From contig JAILJP010000030.1 of the NCBI GenBank assembly GCA_024694625.1, positions 1-64,000 of the forward strand: DNA of 64,000 bases, written 5' to 3'. This stretch comes from Lachnospiraceae bacterium. Its GTDB lineage: Bacteria; Bacillota; Clostridia; Lachnospirales; Lachnospiraceae. Under the pieces are notes generated by a model, which was given only the letters and a program-made list of their open reading frames with translations, searched no databases and had not been told where the DNA came from. Below are positions 13,788 to 20,043 of this stretch, piece by piece (the first letter of the stretch is position 1; every line of letters starts with the position of its first letter). The translations under genes were made by a program, and so were the position numbers.

Positions 13788-13869
13788 TGAATTAACAGAT
13801 TAAACATACGATCGAGGCATGAATTGCGTAAAACTTTTTGCTGGAATCGTAGGAAATGGGGGACCGGAA

Positions 13870-15957
13870 ATGAAGGTATTTACAACAGACAAAATTCGTA
13901 ACATTGTGTTATTGGGACATTCCGGAGCAGGTAAGACTTCTTTGGTTGAGTCTATGGCTTTTTTATCCGGAATGACGAATCGAATCGGAAAAGTGGATGA
14001 CGGGAATACAATCAGTGATTTCGATGCACAGGAAATCAAACGGAAGCTTTCCATTCAAACTTCCCTTATTCCTATTTTGTGGGAGGATTGCAAGTTAAAT
14101 ATTTTGGATACACCTGGTTCTATTGACTTTGTGGGAGAGGTGGAAGAGGCCTTGACTGCTGCCGATGCTGCGGTGATTGTGGTCTCTGGTAAAGACGGAA
14201 TAGGAGTTGGTACCAGACTTGCTTGGGAAAAATGTGAGAAATATCATTTGCCTCGTATGTTTTATGTAACGGGTATGGATATGGATGACGTTTCCTATAA
14301 GCAGGTCATTTTAGATTTACAGGAACTTTATGGAAAACGCATTGCTCCTTTTCATTTACCTATTCGTGAAGGAGGAGAATTTGTTGGATATGTAAACGTT
14401 ATCCAGCAAAGAGCGAAGCGCTGGAAAGAAGACGGAACGGTAGAAAAGATGGACGTTCCTGATTATTCCATGGAATACTTGGAAACCTATCGAGAAGCCT
14501 TGATGGAATCAGTGGCAGAAACATCAGAAGAATTAATGGATCGCTACTTTAACGGAGAAGAATTTTCCGATGATGAAATCCGTCAGGCGTTAAGAGTAAA
14601 TGTAGCAGAAGGAAGCATTGTACCGGTATTGATGGGTTCCAACATTCTTAATCGTGGTATGTATACCTTGATGGTAGATATGGTGAAATATCTGCCTGGA
14701 CCGGATAAGCGGGAGTGTGCAGGTATTAATGCAAAATCCAATGATGTGTTTGAAGCCAATTACGATTTTGCAAAGACCAAATCTGCCTATGTATTTAAAA
14801 CCATTGTGGATCCTTTTGTAGGAAAGTATTCCTTGATTAAAGTAAACTCCGGTGTACTTAAAACTGATGACGTTTTATTTAATCATCACAAAGATACAGA
14901 AGAAAAAATCGGGAAGCTCTATGTGTTGACCGGTTCCAAAGCTGAGGAAGTAAAGGAACTTCATGCTGGTGATATTGGGGCATTAAGCAAGCTTTCCAAG
15001 GTGGCTACTACGGATTCTCTTTCCACAAAATCCAATCCGATTTTATACATTCGAACCGGAATCCCTACACCTTATACCTGTATGAGATACAAACCGGTGA
15101 ACAAAGGGGATGAAGAAAAGGCCGCTTCTGGATTGAGCAAACTGGCTCAGGAAGATTTAACCATAAAGATTAAAAATGACGGTGAGAATCATCAGACTTT
15201 GATTTATGGTATTTCCGAACAGCATTTGGAAGTAGTGGCAGATAAATTAAAAGAAAAATACAAAGTGGAGATTACACTTTCCAGACCAAAGGTTGCTTAT
15301 AAGGAAACCATTCGTGGTAAAAGCGATGTGGAATTTAAATACAAAAAGCAATCTGGTGGACATGGTCAGTACGGTCACGTAAAGATGACCTTTGAACCTT
15401 TAGGGGACAATGAGAAAGCCTTTGAATTTTCACAAACCGTTGTAGGAGGAAGCGTACCGAAAAACTATTTCCCTGCAGTGGAAAAAGGACTGGAGGAAGG
15501 TTGCAAAAAAGGACCTTTGGCGGCTTATCCTGTTGTAGGTATCAAAGCCAATTTGTACGATGGAAGTTATCACGCTGTGGATTCTTCCGAAATGGCATTT
15601 AAAACAGCGGCAATTCAATGCCTGAAAAAAGGTATCCTAGAAGCGAAACCCGTATTATTGGAGCCTGTTTCCCAATTGAAAGTGGTTATTCCTGATGACA
15701 AGACCGGTGATGTTATGGGAGATTTAAACAAGCGTCATGGAAAGGTGATAGGCATGAATCCCGTGGAAGGAAAGAAGACGGAAATTGTTGCGGAGATTCC
15801 CGATGCGGAATTGTTCGGATATGGAACCGCCCTTCGTTCCCTTACCGCAGGCGAAGGCGTTTTCTCATACGAGTTTTTGAATTATCAGCAAGCCCCCAGC
15901 GATATTCAGGAAAAAGAAATTGAACATCGAAAGAGTAAGCTTGAAGAGGAAGAATAA
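13870..15957 (+). CDS. Elongation factor G-like GTPase (EF-G paralogue)
   Basis: A 695-residue translational GTPase with the EF-G domain order, but not the canonical translocase. G1 GHSGAGKT (16-23) is intact. In G3 the usual DTPGH reads DTPGS (80-84), so the catalytic His is replaced by Ser. G4, normally NKxD, reads TGMD (134-137). The switch I region reads KRKLSIQTS instead of ERGITI. Domain IV still has the GGHGQYGHVKM stretch typical of EF-G. The ATG at 13870 has GGGGGA eight bases upstream; an ATG at 13819 is open but its GAGG is too close. The next gene, encoding a Cas10-like protein, is only 26 bp away. Probably a ribosome-associated paralogue of unknown role. Confidence 0.85.
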   Translation: MKVFTTDKIRNIVLLGHSGAGKTSLVESMAFLSGMTNRIGKVDDGNTISDFDAQEIKRKLSIQTSLIPILWEDCKLNILDTPGSIDFVGEVEEALTAADAAVIVVSGKDGIGVGTRLAWEKCEKYHLPRMFYVTGMDMDDVSYKQVILDLQELYGKRIAPFHLPIREGGEFVGYVNVIQQRAKRWKEDGTVEKMDVPDYSMEYLETYREALMESVAETSEELMDRYFNGEEFSDDEIRQALRVNVAEGSIVPVLMGSNILNRGMYTLMVDMVKYLPGPDKRECAGINAKSNDVFEANYDFAKTKSAYVFKTIVDPFVGKYSLIKVNSGVLKTDDVLFNHHKDTEEKIGKLYVLTGSKAEEVKELHAGDIGALSKLSKVATTDSLSTKSNPILYIRTGIPTPYTCMRYKPVNKGDEEKAASGLSKLAQEDLTIKIKNDGENHQTLIYGISEQHLEVVADKLKEKYKVEITLSRPKVAYKETIRGKSDVEFKYKKQSGGHGQYGHVKMTFEPLGDNEKAFEFSQTVVGGSVPKNYFPAVEKGLEEGCKKGPLAAYPVVGIKANLYDGSYHAVDSSEMAFKTAAIQCLKKGILEAKPVLLEPVSQLKVVIPDDKTGDVMGDLNKRHGKVIGMNPVEGKKTEIVAEIPDAELFGYGTALRSLTAGEGVFSYEFLNYQQAPSDIQEKEIEHRKSKLEEEE

Positions 15958-15983: not shown

Positions 15984-17552
15984 ATGAAAAAATACGTAGG
16001 CATAACCATAGGACCAATTGCAAATGCACTTCAGTATGCAAAAGACCCACAGTCTTTATGGTTTGCCTGCGCTATTTTTTCGGAAATATCAAGAGAAATC
16101 TGTGAGCTGATTACCGCTCCTAATTCCACCTTTGACGAAGTGGTAATCTATACTCCTTATTATTTCCACGGAATGAAAATTGACGATGGTGTTGCGAAGA
16201 CCCATGACCGTATTGTTTTTTCAGCAAATCATGTGGATACATCTGTTTTGGACCGGATTATCCGTCTGGTAAAAGCGGACGTATGTGATTTGTTCCCTGT
16301 GGAATATCAGTCCAATGAATATCGGGATTTTCTTAACCGATATTTTCAAATCAACTATATCTGTTTGGATGAAAACGAAAATCTCAACCAAAACTGTATG
16401 ATGTCTATTTATCCTTATTTGCGGGATATGGAACAGCTGCAAACAGAAGAAAAAGAAACCTTTTTAAATCCGTTTTATGATCTGTTTCAGTTGGGGGATA
16501 ACGAAAGAAGTTTTCGAATTATGACTTCTCCCATGGCCCATCTCATTAAAAAAGGCTCTGCCCAATTCTTTAATATTCGGGGAGAGTTTAAAAGTGTGTT
16601 TGAAATTGCAAATCCATCAAAACCGGAAGGAAGAAAAACGGTTCCATTTTATTGTTTGGTTCGAGCCAACGGGGATAATATCGACAATTTGTTGCGGGGA
16701 TTCTCCGAAAACAAAAAGTTGATTTCCTTTTCCATAGCCTGTTTGCAACATTCCATTACAGCATCGGAATTGATTCGTCTCTTTGGAGGTATGACGGTGT
16801 ATGCCGGAGGAGATGAAATTTTCTTCTTTGCCCCTTTGGTAGGAAATGATGGCTCTACGGTTTTTGAACTTTGTCAAAGAATTCAGCAAAAGTTTTATAC
16901 CTTTATGAAAAACCATCTTCCATGGTCAAATATTCCCACCTTATCCTTTGGGATTTCTATTCAGAGAAACAGTCACCAGGTATATGACGCCTTTGTGGAA
17001 ACTGGAAAGCTTTTAAATGTGGCAAAGCAAATCAGTGACAAAAACAATACCGCCATTCGTTTGACAAACAAAAACCGAAAGGAATGCATCGTTATAAACA
17101 ACGATGATATTGATGTGTTACTGGATTTGTTTGAAGCAGGACTGGATATTTGTGATGGCATGGTTACCATTGAAAGAAAGCGGTTACAGTTGTTGGAATC
17201 CATTGCTGTAATTGATGAATTTGAAAGCATTATTTTATCTGTGGGAGAAATGGCTAGAAGCGGAAATCTTCGTCCGGAAGAATATCTCCGTTCCTTGTCA
17301 TCAATTTTTAAAGGTGGCCCCATGGAAAGAAATCCGGAGTATCTGAAAATTATTTTGACGTTGTATTACAAGAAACTGGTGCGCAAACCAAAACAGATTT
17401 GGGTTCCGGAATTTGATGATGAAAACGGAAGGTATAAAAAAGCCAACCATTATGATGATGAGGACAGCAGTGTGAAGGTCTTTAAAGAAATCCTGAATAT
17501 GAAGGAAGATTTGTTGGAATTACAGGAGGAGAAAGCAAGTAGATTTTCTTGA
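15984..17552 (+). CDS. Orphan Cas10/Cmr2-like palm-domain protein
   Basis: This 522-residue soluble protein resembles Cas10/Cmr2, the large subunit of type III CRISPR complexes. The N-terminus has the Cmr2-type ITIGPIANAL strand/helix followed by DPQSLWFACAIFSEI, comparable with the 'tiGPVQ...ktrDLWagS..lS' pattern of Cmr2. A palm-like domain (about 220-375) has a GDN motif (230-232) in its first strand and GGDE (275-278) where Cas10 has GGDD, then LSFGISI and a helix like the Cas10 segment after the palm. A helical C-terminal part (about 380-522) follows. No N-terminal HD nuclease domain and no zinc-finger cysteine cluster are seen. No CRISPR array or other cas gene is present. It follows the EF-G-like gene by 26 bp; leuS has its own promoter at its 3' end. 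GGDE also resembles GGDEF enzymes, but the GDN strand and N-terminus favour Cas10. Activity is not known. Confidence 0.7.
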   Translation: MKKYVGITIGPIANALQYAKDPQSLWFACAIFSEISREICELITAPNSTFDEVVIYTPYYFHGMKIDDGVAKTHDRIVFSANHVDTSVLDRIIRLVKADVCDLFPVEYQSNEYRDFLNRYFQINYICLDENENLNQNCMMSIYPYLRDMEQLQTEEKETFLNPFYDLFQLGDNERSFRIMTSPMAHLIKKGSAQFFNIRGEFKSVFEIANPSKPEGRKTVPFYCLVRANGDNIDNLLRGFSENKKLISFSIACLQHSITASELIRLFGGMTVYAGGDEIFFFAPLVGNDGSTVFELCQRIQQKFYTFMKNHLPWSNIPTLSFGISIQRNSHQVYDAFVETGKLLNVAKQISDKNNTAIRLTNKNRKECIVINNDDIDVLLDLFEAGLDICDGMVTIERKRLQLLESIAVIDEFESIILSVGEMARSGNLRPEEYLRSLSSIFKGGPMERNPEYLKIILTLYYKKLVRKPKQIWVPEFDDENGRYKKANHYDDEDSSVKVFKEILNMKEDLLELQEEKASRFS

Positions 17553-17576
17553 CAAATAAGCCCCTTATGATAAAAT
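17549..17576 (+). promoter_or_regulatory. Promoter of leuS
   Basis: Perfect TTGACA (17549-17554) overlapping the stop codon of the Cas10-like gene, a 16-bp spacer and TAAAAT (17571-17576). It gives leuS a start independent of the upstream pair. The leader is too short for a T-box. Confidence 0.7.
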
Positions 17577-17619: not shown

Positions 17620-20043
17620 ATGGCTCAGGCATATAATCATCATACTGTTGAAAAAAAATGGCAGAAATATTGGGAGGAAAACGAAACCTTTAAGACGGAC
17701 GTTTGGGATTTCTCAAAGCCCAAATACTACGCGTTGGATATGTTTCCCTATCCCTCAGGAGTAGGATTGCATGCTGGTCATCCGGAAGGTTATACAGCAA
17801 CAGATATTATGTCCCGTATGAAGAGAATGCAGGGATACAATGTACTTCATCCCATGGGATACGATTCTTTTGGTCTTCCTGCAGAGCAGTACGCAGTTAC
17901 TACAGGAAATCATCCTGCAGGATTTACTGAGAAAAACGTTGCTACCTTTTCAAAGCAGTTAAAGGAATTGGGCTTTGACTATGATTGGTCAAAGATGCTT
18001 GCAACATCCGATCCCGCTTTTTATAAATGGACACAGTGGATTTTCAAAAAGCTTTACGAAGCAGGCTATGCAAAGCATATCGACATGCCTGTAAACTGGT
18101 GTGAAGAGTTGGGAACCGTATTGTCCAACGATGAAGTTATTGACGGAAAGTCTGAACGTGGTGGATACCCTGTTGTGAAAAAGATGATGAAACAGTGGGT
18201 AATCGACCAGCAGTCTTTTGCCGAAGAATTATTGTCCGGTCTTGATGAAATTGAATGGCCGGAGTCTACAAAGGAGATTCAGAGAAACTGGATTGGAAAA
18301 TCAACCGGTGTGGAAGTTGATTTCTCTATTGAAGGTGGCGGTGAATTCTCTATCTTTACCACCTGTATTGAAACAATTTACGGTATTACCTTTATGGTAC
18401 TTGCTCCCGATGGAGAGATTACCGCAAGTTTGTTGGATCGTGTGGAAAACCGTGAAGAAGTAGAAGCTTATATTGCAGAAACTGCAAAGAAAAATGATTT
18501 GGATCGTACGGATTTGAATAAGACAAAATCCGGATGTCCTTTAAAGGGTATCTATGCCATTAACCCTGTAAACGGAAGAAAAGTTCCGGTATTTATCGGT
18601 GACTTTGTATTGGCAAGTTATGGTACCGGTGCGGTTATGGCTGTTCCTACTCATGATCAAAGAGACTTTGAATATGCACAGGCTCATGGATTGGAGTATA
18701 TTCAGGTAATCGATGGAGAAGGTGTGGATGTTTCAAATCATGCCTTTGAAAAACAGGATTACCTTGGAAAGGGATGCACCTTAATTAATTCAGAAGAGTT
18801 CAATGGTCTTACCGTTGAAGAAGCTAAGCCTGCCATTACCAAGAAATTGGTGGATATGGGTGTAGCCAGAGAAAAGGTGAATTACCATTTTCGTGAATGG
18901 ATTTTTGCAAGACAAAGATATTGGGGCGAACCTGTTCCCTGTGTTTATAAAGAAGACGGAAGCATTGCCTTTGTTCCCGATGAAGAACTTCCGGTAGAAC
19001 TTCCTGAGTTGGAAGACTATAAGGGAAAAAACGGACAGGCACCTTTGGAAAATGCCACCGAATGGAAAGCCTACGATAAAAACGGTTTAAAAGGTACCAG
19101 AGAAACTTCTACCATGCCCGGTTCAGCAGGTTCTTCTTGGTACTATATGCGATATATCGATCCTCATAATGACAAGGAATTTGCAAATCAGGAACTTTTG
19201 AAGCACTGGATGCCTGTTGATTTATATGTAGGTGGTCCGGAACACGCTGTAGGACACTTGATTTATTCCCGTATTTGGAATAGATTTTTATACAATCAGG
19301 GACTTTCTCCTGTAAAGGAACCCTTCAAGAAATTGGTTCATCAGGGTATGATTCTTGGTGAAAACGGAATCAAAATGGGTAAACGTTTCCCTGAGTTTGT
19401 TGTCAACCCCAGTGATATTGTAAGAGATTATGGTGCAGACACTCTTCGTTTGTATGAAATGTTTATGGGACCTTTGGAAGTATCAAAACCCTGGAACTCC
19501 AACAATGTTCAGGGTGCGAAGAAGTTTATCAACCGTGTATATACCTTCTTTGCAGAGCCTTCCAATATCGTAGATGAAGATGATAAAACATTGGAAAAGA
19601 TTTATCATCAGACTGTTAAGAAGGTAACCAACGACTTTGAAGAACTTGGTTATAACACAGCGATTTCTCAGATGATGATTTTTGTAAATGCAGTTTACAA
19701 AGCAGGAAGCTGCTACAGAGAATACGCTGAAAACTTTATTAAGATGTTCTCTTGTATTTGCCCTCACGTAGGTGAAGAAATTTGGGAGATTATGGGTCAT
19801 AATAACACCATCGCCTATGAAGCTTGGCCTACCTATGACGAGGCTAAATGTGTAGAAGATACGGTAGAAATCGCTGTACAGATCAATGGAAAGGTAAAAG
19901 CTACCATCGCCATTGGTAAAGATGATCCGAAGGATGACGTAATTGCCAAAGGGAAAGAAGCAATTGCCGATAAGCTGGAAGGATTGAACATTGTAAAAGA
20001 GATTTACGTACCCGGCAGAATTGTAAACATTGTAGCAAAATAA
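17620..20043 (+). CDS. leuS: Leucine--tRNA ligase
   Basis: Class I synthetase charging tRNA-Leu. The 807-residue protein has the HIGH-type motif HAGH (51-54), an editing domain in the middle, DSFGLPAEQYA, and a C-terminal anticodon-binding region. The KMSKS loop reads KMGKR (585-589). The open frame begins with TTG at 17608, only one base from the AGGAGG (17601-17606); the ATG at 17620 is the realistic start. The gene has its own promoter and is followed by a hairpin before icd. Confidence 0.96.
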   Translation: MAQAYNHHTVEKKWQKYWEENETFKTDVWDFSKPKYYALDMFPYPSGVGLHAGHPEGYTATDIMSRMKRMQGYNVLHPMGYDSFGLPAEQYAVTTGNHPAGFTEKNVATFSKQLKELGFDYDWSKMLATSDPAFYKWTQWIFKKLYEAGYAKHIDMPVNWCEELGTVLSNDEVIDGKSERGGYPVVKKMMKQWVIDQQSFAEELLSGLDEIEWPESTKEIQRNWIGKSTGVEVDFSIEGGGEFSIFTTCIETIYGITFMVLAPDGEITASLLDRVENREEVEAYIAETAKKNDLDRTDLNKTKSGCPLKGIYAINPVNGRKVPVFIGDFVLASYGTGAVMAVPTHDQRDFEYAQAHGLEYIQVIDGEGVDVSNHAFEKQDYLGKGCTLINSEEFNGLTVEEAKPAITKKLVDMGVAREKVNYHFREWIFARQRYWGEPVPCVYKEDGSIAFVPDEELPVELPELEDYKGKNGQAPLENATEWKAYDKNGLKGTRETSTMPGSAGSSWYYMRYIDPHNDKEFANQELLKHWMPVDLYVGGPEHAVGHLIYSRIWNRFLYNQGLSPVKEPFKKLVHQGMILGENGIKMGKRFPEFVVNPSDIVRDYGADTLRLYEMFMGPLEVSKPWNSNNVQGAKKFINRVYTFFAEPSNIVDEDDKTLEKIYHQTVKKVTNDFEELGYNTAISQMMIFVNAVYKAGSCYREYAENFIKMFSCICPHVGEEIWEIMGHNNTIAYEAWPTYDEAKCVEDTVEIAVQINGKVKATIAIGKDDPKDDVIAKGKEAIADKLEGLNIVKEIYVPGRIVNIVAK

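Follow-up and report, generated by a model that had tools for sequence, protein, structure and literature searches.

An orphan cas10 gene of Cmr2 ancestry at a housekeeping locus of Lachnospiraceae: a candidate nucleotide-binding pseudo-cyclase

In a 64,000-nucleotide stretch of Lachnospiraceae DNA (contig JAILJP010000030.1, positions 1 to 64,000; hereafter, the window), a gene for a Cas10/Cmr2-like protein of 522 residues is lodged between the genes of an EF-G-like translation factor and of leucyl-tRNA synthetase. Is this a genuine Cas10, does it still belong to a CRISPR system, and if not, what might it do in such a place? The open reading frame has the coordinates, strand, and ATG start given by the first-pass annotation, which had been made from the sequence alone (Table 1).

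Table 1. Features of the orphan cas10 locus (positions in the window)
Feature	Position	Strand	Remarks
EF-G-like translation factor gene (fusA2-type)	13867..15957	+	26 bases upstream of cas10
Orphan Cas10/Cmr2-like gene (522 aa)	15984..17552	+	Intact ORF, ATG start
N-terminal Cmr2_N-like motif, residues 4-45	15993..16118	+	Pfam Cmr2_N 0.049
Palm-2 (Cas10-Cmr2_palm2) domain, residues 223-356	16650..17051	+	Pfam PF22335 2.9e-18
Motif I codons N229-G230-D231 (D-G-D in Cmr2)	16668..16676	+	Profile alignment
S250, invariant serine	16731..16733	+	27 residues ahead of GGDD Asp
GGDE (residues 275-278) replacing GGDD	16806..16817	+	Alignment
Fast-evolving C-terminal helical region (366-522), without Cmr2 C-terminal (D4) signature	17079..17549	+	
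leuS promoter-like site TTGACA-16-TAAAAT, extended -10	17549..17576	+	Aligns with the promoter of congener G034
leuS, leucyl-tRNA synthetase	17620..20043	+	

The protein had been called Cas10/Cmr2-like at first reading, and matches in Pfam, PADLOC, NCBIfam, and a solved structure show that this call was right. The best PADLOC match was Cas10b (6e-25, residues 3 to 362), and Pfam Cas10-Cmr2_palm2 (PF22335) was hit at 2.9e-18, with 66.7 bits against a curated family cut-off of 27. The nearest solved chain was 9lq5_B, a Cmr2 (3e-17), which a profile built from the orphans and eight Cmr2 proteins aligned end to end (1e-82). The NCBIfam Cmr2 model (TIGR02577) matched at 4.6e-11, its 42.2 bits lying below the equivalog cut-off of 79.4. 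Palm-2 was the only domain above its Pfam cut-off. The annotated palm-like domain with GDN (residues 230 to 232) and GGDE motifs is therein confirmed, and the Cmr2-like N-terminal pattern reported with it, KYVGITIGPI...DPQSLWFACAIFSE, is also present: Cmr2_N was weak and below cut-off in Pfam (0.049), the PADLOC Cas10b match being stronger, and G6, T8, G10, P11, L25, W26, F32, and S33 were invariant among the orphans and the eight Cmr2 proteins. An assignment as a GGDEF diguanylate cyclase was rejected, the significant family matches being to Cas10; since GGDEF proteins apparently match PF22335 too (E. coli control), this family is poorly suited to a census. An AlphaFold2 model from two sequences (pLDDT 37, pTM 0.23) was too poor for use. 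By sequence, the orphan is a diverged Cas10/Cmr2 of type III-B and of the HD-less kind.

The surroundings are those of housekeeping genes, as is the codon use, both of which the first-pass annotation had noted. According to Pfam, tyrA and aroA (minus strand) and then the EF-G-like factor lie upstream, and leuS, isocitrate dehydrogenase, ABC-F, and Rex lie downstream; the GC3 of cas10 (0.383) is within the range of its neighbors (0.36 to 0.45). No terminator-like site was found between the EF-G-like gene and cas10, and Rfam gave no match there, whether to a T-box or to any other RNA. At its other end, cas10 runs into the leuS promoter-like site, whose -35 element (TTGACA) shares bases with the stop codon.

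The same arrangement recurs in two relatives. One syntenic orthologue (76 to 77% identity) lies on a rumen-MAG Lachnospiraceae contig (L005), taken as belonging to the G202/G206 genome, and the other (67% identity) is in G203, so that the carriers are three related gut (rumen-type) species of one genus. The gene was found in 3/8 genomes of this genus, a count in which the contig of one genome (G200) ends at the EF-G-like gene; three others (G201, G204, and G205) showed other contexts and no match to the orphan. The congener G034 has an empty site, at which the EF-G paralogue, a terminator-like hairpin (read by eye), the same leuS promoter, and leuS are present without cas10. The LeuS proteins of the orphan-bearing genome and of G034 (L027) are only 48.5% identical; this divergence, despite an alignable promoter and a common EF-G paralogue, raises the suspicion that leuS may have been displaced here around the arrival of cas10.

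Elsewhere, a profile of the three orthologues, run on the family, the class, and the phylum at about 400 genomes apiece, matched Cas10 proteins only. No relative was detected in viral contigs (searches with two alignments) or in phage records, and plasmids yielded annotated Cas10/Cmr2 proteins only. The top match of the phylum search after the window's own protein was a Cmr2 (L040, genome G1089) that adjoins Cmr1/Cmr3-type genes and has GGED replacing GGDD.

In a midpoint-rooted tree, where long branches may attract, the orphans formed one clade (100/100), sister to the Lachnospiraceae Cmr2 of genome G141 (97/96). The stem of this clade measured 2.27 changes per site, against 0.045 to 0.28 for the branches inside it. 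Among the orthologues, dN/dS was about 0.09 to 0.13 with dS saturated, which indicates purifying selection and is similar to the values for tyrA (0.13), aroA (0.10), and abcF (0.08). Identity was about 74 to 84% in the palm regions versus 51 to 64% in the C terminus. Because two syntenic orthologues show purifying selection, a chance ORF is excluded. The pattern fits a burst of change, read from the branch length, after the gene left CRISPR, followed by constraint. The alternative origin put forward in the first-pass annotation, an ancestral relative of Cas10, is disfavored, because the gene occurs in one subclade only, is absent at the syntenic site of G034, and groups with Lachnospiraceae Cmr2s. 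We also regard it as highly unlikely that the gene is a decaying, functionless remnant of a lost Cmr locus: the long stem branch and the changed catalytic residues speak for such decay, but the selection pattern contradicts it, the gene being intact in three species at 67 to 76% identity with dN/dS of about 0.1.

We found no CRISPR-like array in the window or in the rest of its contig. At the G141 locus, where Cmr2 occurs with a CRISPR array, the array was detected, and the scan therefore works; in the genome of the closest Cmr2 relative, this array (L021:2137-3340) has a type III-B operon nearby that looks complete. RAMP and Cas1 families had no match in the window genome (G000, 88% complete) or in G203, and Csx1-CARF had none throughout the genus. 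Nor were Cmr1, Cmr3, Cmr4, Cmr5, or Cmr6 found beside the orphan cas10 in these drafts, the neighbors being housekeeping genes. In the loci inspected, the other Cas10b relatives all adjoin Cmr1/Cmr3-type or other cas-type genes, as recognized by sequence and not each by profile. The first-pass statement that no array, RAMP gene, or effector lies nearby is thus upheld. The absence of CRISPR partners is strong but not final, because the genomes are drafts of 82 to 88% completeness, from which a Cmr locus far from the orphan could be absent.

RAMP and Cas1 families were present in G202. The III-D locus of this genome comprises its own Cas10d fragment, III-D Cas5 and Cas7, Csx19, Cas2, and RT-Cas1, and has therefore no need of the orphan as its Cas10. 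It is split over two contigs of G206/G202 (L018 and L019; C279 and C84) and contains a fused Cas7 and an RT-Cas1 fusion. A type III locus without a Cas10 of its own, one of the observations that the first-pass annotation had named as speaking against an orphan, was not found: the window genome has no type III locus, and that of G202 has Cas10d. It could still be argued that the orphan supplies the large subunit to a split CRISPR system or to a RAMP system without an array, the remaining genes of which lie elsewhere and are missing from the drafts, and both the completeness of the genomes and the presence of a III-D locus elsewhere in G202 leave some room for this. However, G000 and G203 have no RAMP match, the G202 locus is equipped with its own Cas10d fragment, Csx19, and III-D Cas5 and Cas7, and a single cmr locus would escape notice in 3/3 drafts with a chance of roughly 0.12 x 0.17 x 0.18 = 0.004 if these are independent. 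The C-terminal region, moreover, is no longer Cmr2-like (see below), and we consider a split system improbable. We give even less credence to an inhibitory or decoy Cas10 that would damp type III complexes or soak up their nucleotides. The coexistence of the orphan with a III-D system in G202 and its altered catalytic site are compatible with such a role; on the other hand, the gene is retained in G000 and G203, where no type III system was detected, and a Cmr2-type orphan and a Cas10d system are of different subtypes.

What remains of the active site bears on the function. Residue 229 was Asn in 3/3 orthologues and Asp in 14/14 distinct alignable CRISPR Cas10s of the profile alignment, a row with faulty alignment (L055) and three duplicates having been excluded from this count. 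By alignment and numbering offset, N229 corresponds to D600 of Pyrococcus Cmr2, in whose numbering the GGDD aspartates are D673/D674; we take this position to be a metal-binding Asp, as in palm cyclases generally. The last Asp of GGDD is replaced by Glu, a change fixed in 3/3 orthologues, so that all of them carry NGD and GGDE in place of the catalytic DGD and GGDD of the Cas10 family. The segments around the active site were more often invariant among the orthologues than the rest, at 33/38 positions versus 289/484 elsewhere (Fisher p 0.0008, with a motif set of our choosing), which suggests that the pocket has probably been kept for nucleotide binding. S250 is, with equivalence judged by spacing, the counterpart of S30 in mCpol, which lies 27 residues before D57 and helps select ATP (PMC12657230).

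The first-pass annotation had proposed that the protein makes a cyclic nucleotide signal. With Asn at the first metal-binding position of 3/3 orthologues and GGDE instead of GGDD, this is doubtful, as is canonical two-metal catalysis by the orphan. The main rival to a binding protein is an active stand-alone cyclase, which would convert ATP or another NTP into a cyclic or linear nucleotide signal through NGD/GGDE, in the manner of mCpol, within a housekeeping or a new defense circuit. Such activity is consistent with the listing of GGDE among Cas10 variants that accompany known effectors at their loci and are presumed active (PMC11229360), a point that counts against a pseudo-cyclase. It is also consistent with the place of the active-site segments among the best-conserved parts of the orthologues, with the retained serine that matches the ATP-selectivity residue of mCpol, and with the finding that isolated Thermococcus Cas10 works without the complex (PMC13398931). 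Against it stand the Asn at the first metal ligand in every orthologue, where every alignable CRISPR Cas10 has Asp, and the lack of any receptor gene found nearby or, in the genus, of a Csx1-type CARF, the receptor family searched for there. On balance, we judge an active cyclase rather unlikely.

The C-terminal region has diverged further. The Cas10b profile match stopped near residue 362 in the orphans and spanned nearly all of the G141 protein. Against a Cmr2 profile, orphan C-terminal regions scored -0.4 and 4.9 bits, with no match reported for the G203 orthologue, versus 16 to 48 bits for true Cmr2 C-terminal regions (leave-one-out); a Cmr2-type C-terminal domain was thus not recognized in the orphans. 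In CRISPR complexes, the C-terminal region of Cas10 contacts other subunits, and the loss of the Cmr2 signature therefore fits a departure from the complex.

Compared with known systems, the orphan resembles the HD-less Cmr2 of type III-B (that of G141 and 9lq5_B) in the IGPI...LW..FS motif, palm-2, length, and gross layout, with 32% identity to G141 Cmr2 overall and 37% over residues 2 to 373. Unlike Cmr2, it has no Cmr1/3-6, no array found, and housekeeping neighbors, and it shows the D-to-N change at the first metal Asp, GGDE, and a lost C-terminal signature. It shares with mCpol of Panoptes a Cas10-type palm outside a CRISPR complex and a serine at equal spacing from the catalytic Asp. However, the small palm protein mCpol is paired with 2TMbeta, whereas the orphan, a Cmr2 derivative of full length (522 aa), has no such partner: no mCpol family appeared among its Pfam matches at E values up to 10, and no 2TMbeta effector gene was found among the neighbors identified by Pfam. 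Its Cmr2 layout, with N-terminal, palm-1, and palm-2 parts, and the lack of any mCpol match show that the orphan is not an mCpol, in agreement with the first-pass annotation. The inactivated Cas10s of types III-C, III-G, and III-H likewise have replaced palm catalytic residues, but they are subunits of CRISPR complexes, whose genes the orphan lacks. HRAMP and ARAMP likewise derive from type III CRISPR and have no array, but they retain Cas5/Cas7 homologues and nucleases, whereas the orphan locus has Cas10 only. The literature covers mCpol/Panoptes, the inactivated Cas10s of III-C, III-G, and III-H, HRAMP/ARAMP, and speculation on orphan Cas10 enzymes; in the open-access literature, we found no report in which a full-length Cas10 persists by vertical descent among core genes in the absence of CRISPR.

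The domesticated orphan Cas10 envisaged at first reading is supported by three syntenic orthologues at a fixed position, an empty site, the lack of detected partners, purifying selection, and a CRISPR-embedded sister Cmr2, and the sequence shows Cmr2 ancestry, two catalytic substitutions, and the loss of the C-terminal signature. With moderate confidence, we favor a Cmr2 that has parted from its CRISPR complex to become, most likely, a nucleotide-binding pseudo-cyclase. The forebear of a limited Lachnospiraceae subclade would have acquired an HD-less III-B Cmr2 gene in the chromosomal interval between the EF-G paralogue and leuS and passed it down vertically, unaccompanied by CRISPR. Presumably transcribed together with the EF-G paralogue and folded as palm-1/palm-2, the protein would still bind ATP or another nucleotide in a pocket that retains the invariant serine, the GGD aspartate, and K353, and the usual two-metal synthesis of cyclic oligoadenylate would have been lost. 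It would then act as a nucleotide-sensing adaptor whose divergent C terminus may bind a new partner. Counting against a CRISPR-free reading, G202 carries III-D too, and a role alongside CRISPR is possible there.

The presumed co-transcription with the EF-G paralogue opens the possibility of a role related to translation. That a full-length Cas10 has been domesticated as a translation-linked nucleotide-sensing or signaling protein in anaerobic gut bacteria is a tentative proposal, and one that we put forward with some doubt. If true, evolution would here have run from a CRISPR protein to a housekeeping regulator, opposite to the route proposed from a minimal Cas10-like polymerase to CRISPR effectors. 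At such a locus, the departure of a Cas protein from immunity could be traced through the empty site, the close donor lineage, and the changes in catalytic residues, and the orphan would test whether Cas10 palm domains act as nucleotide sensors outside defense. Overall, these data suggest that a defense protein has been recruited for another cellular job.
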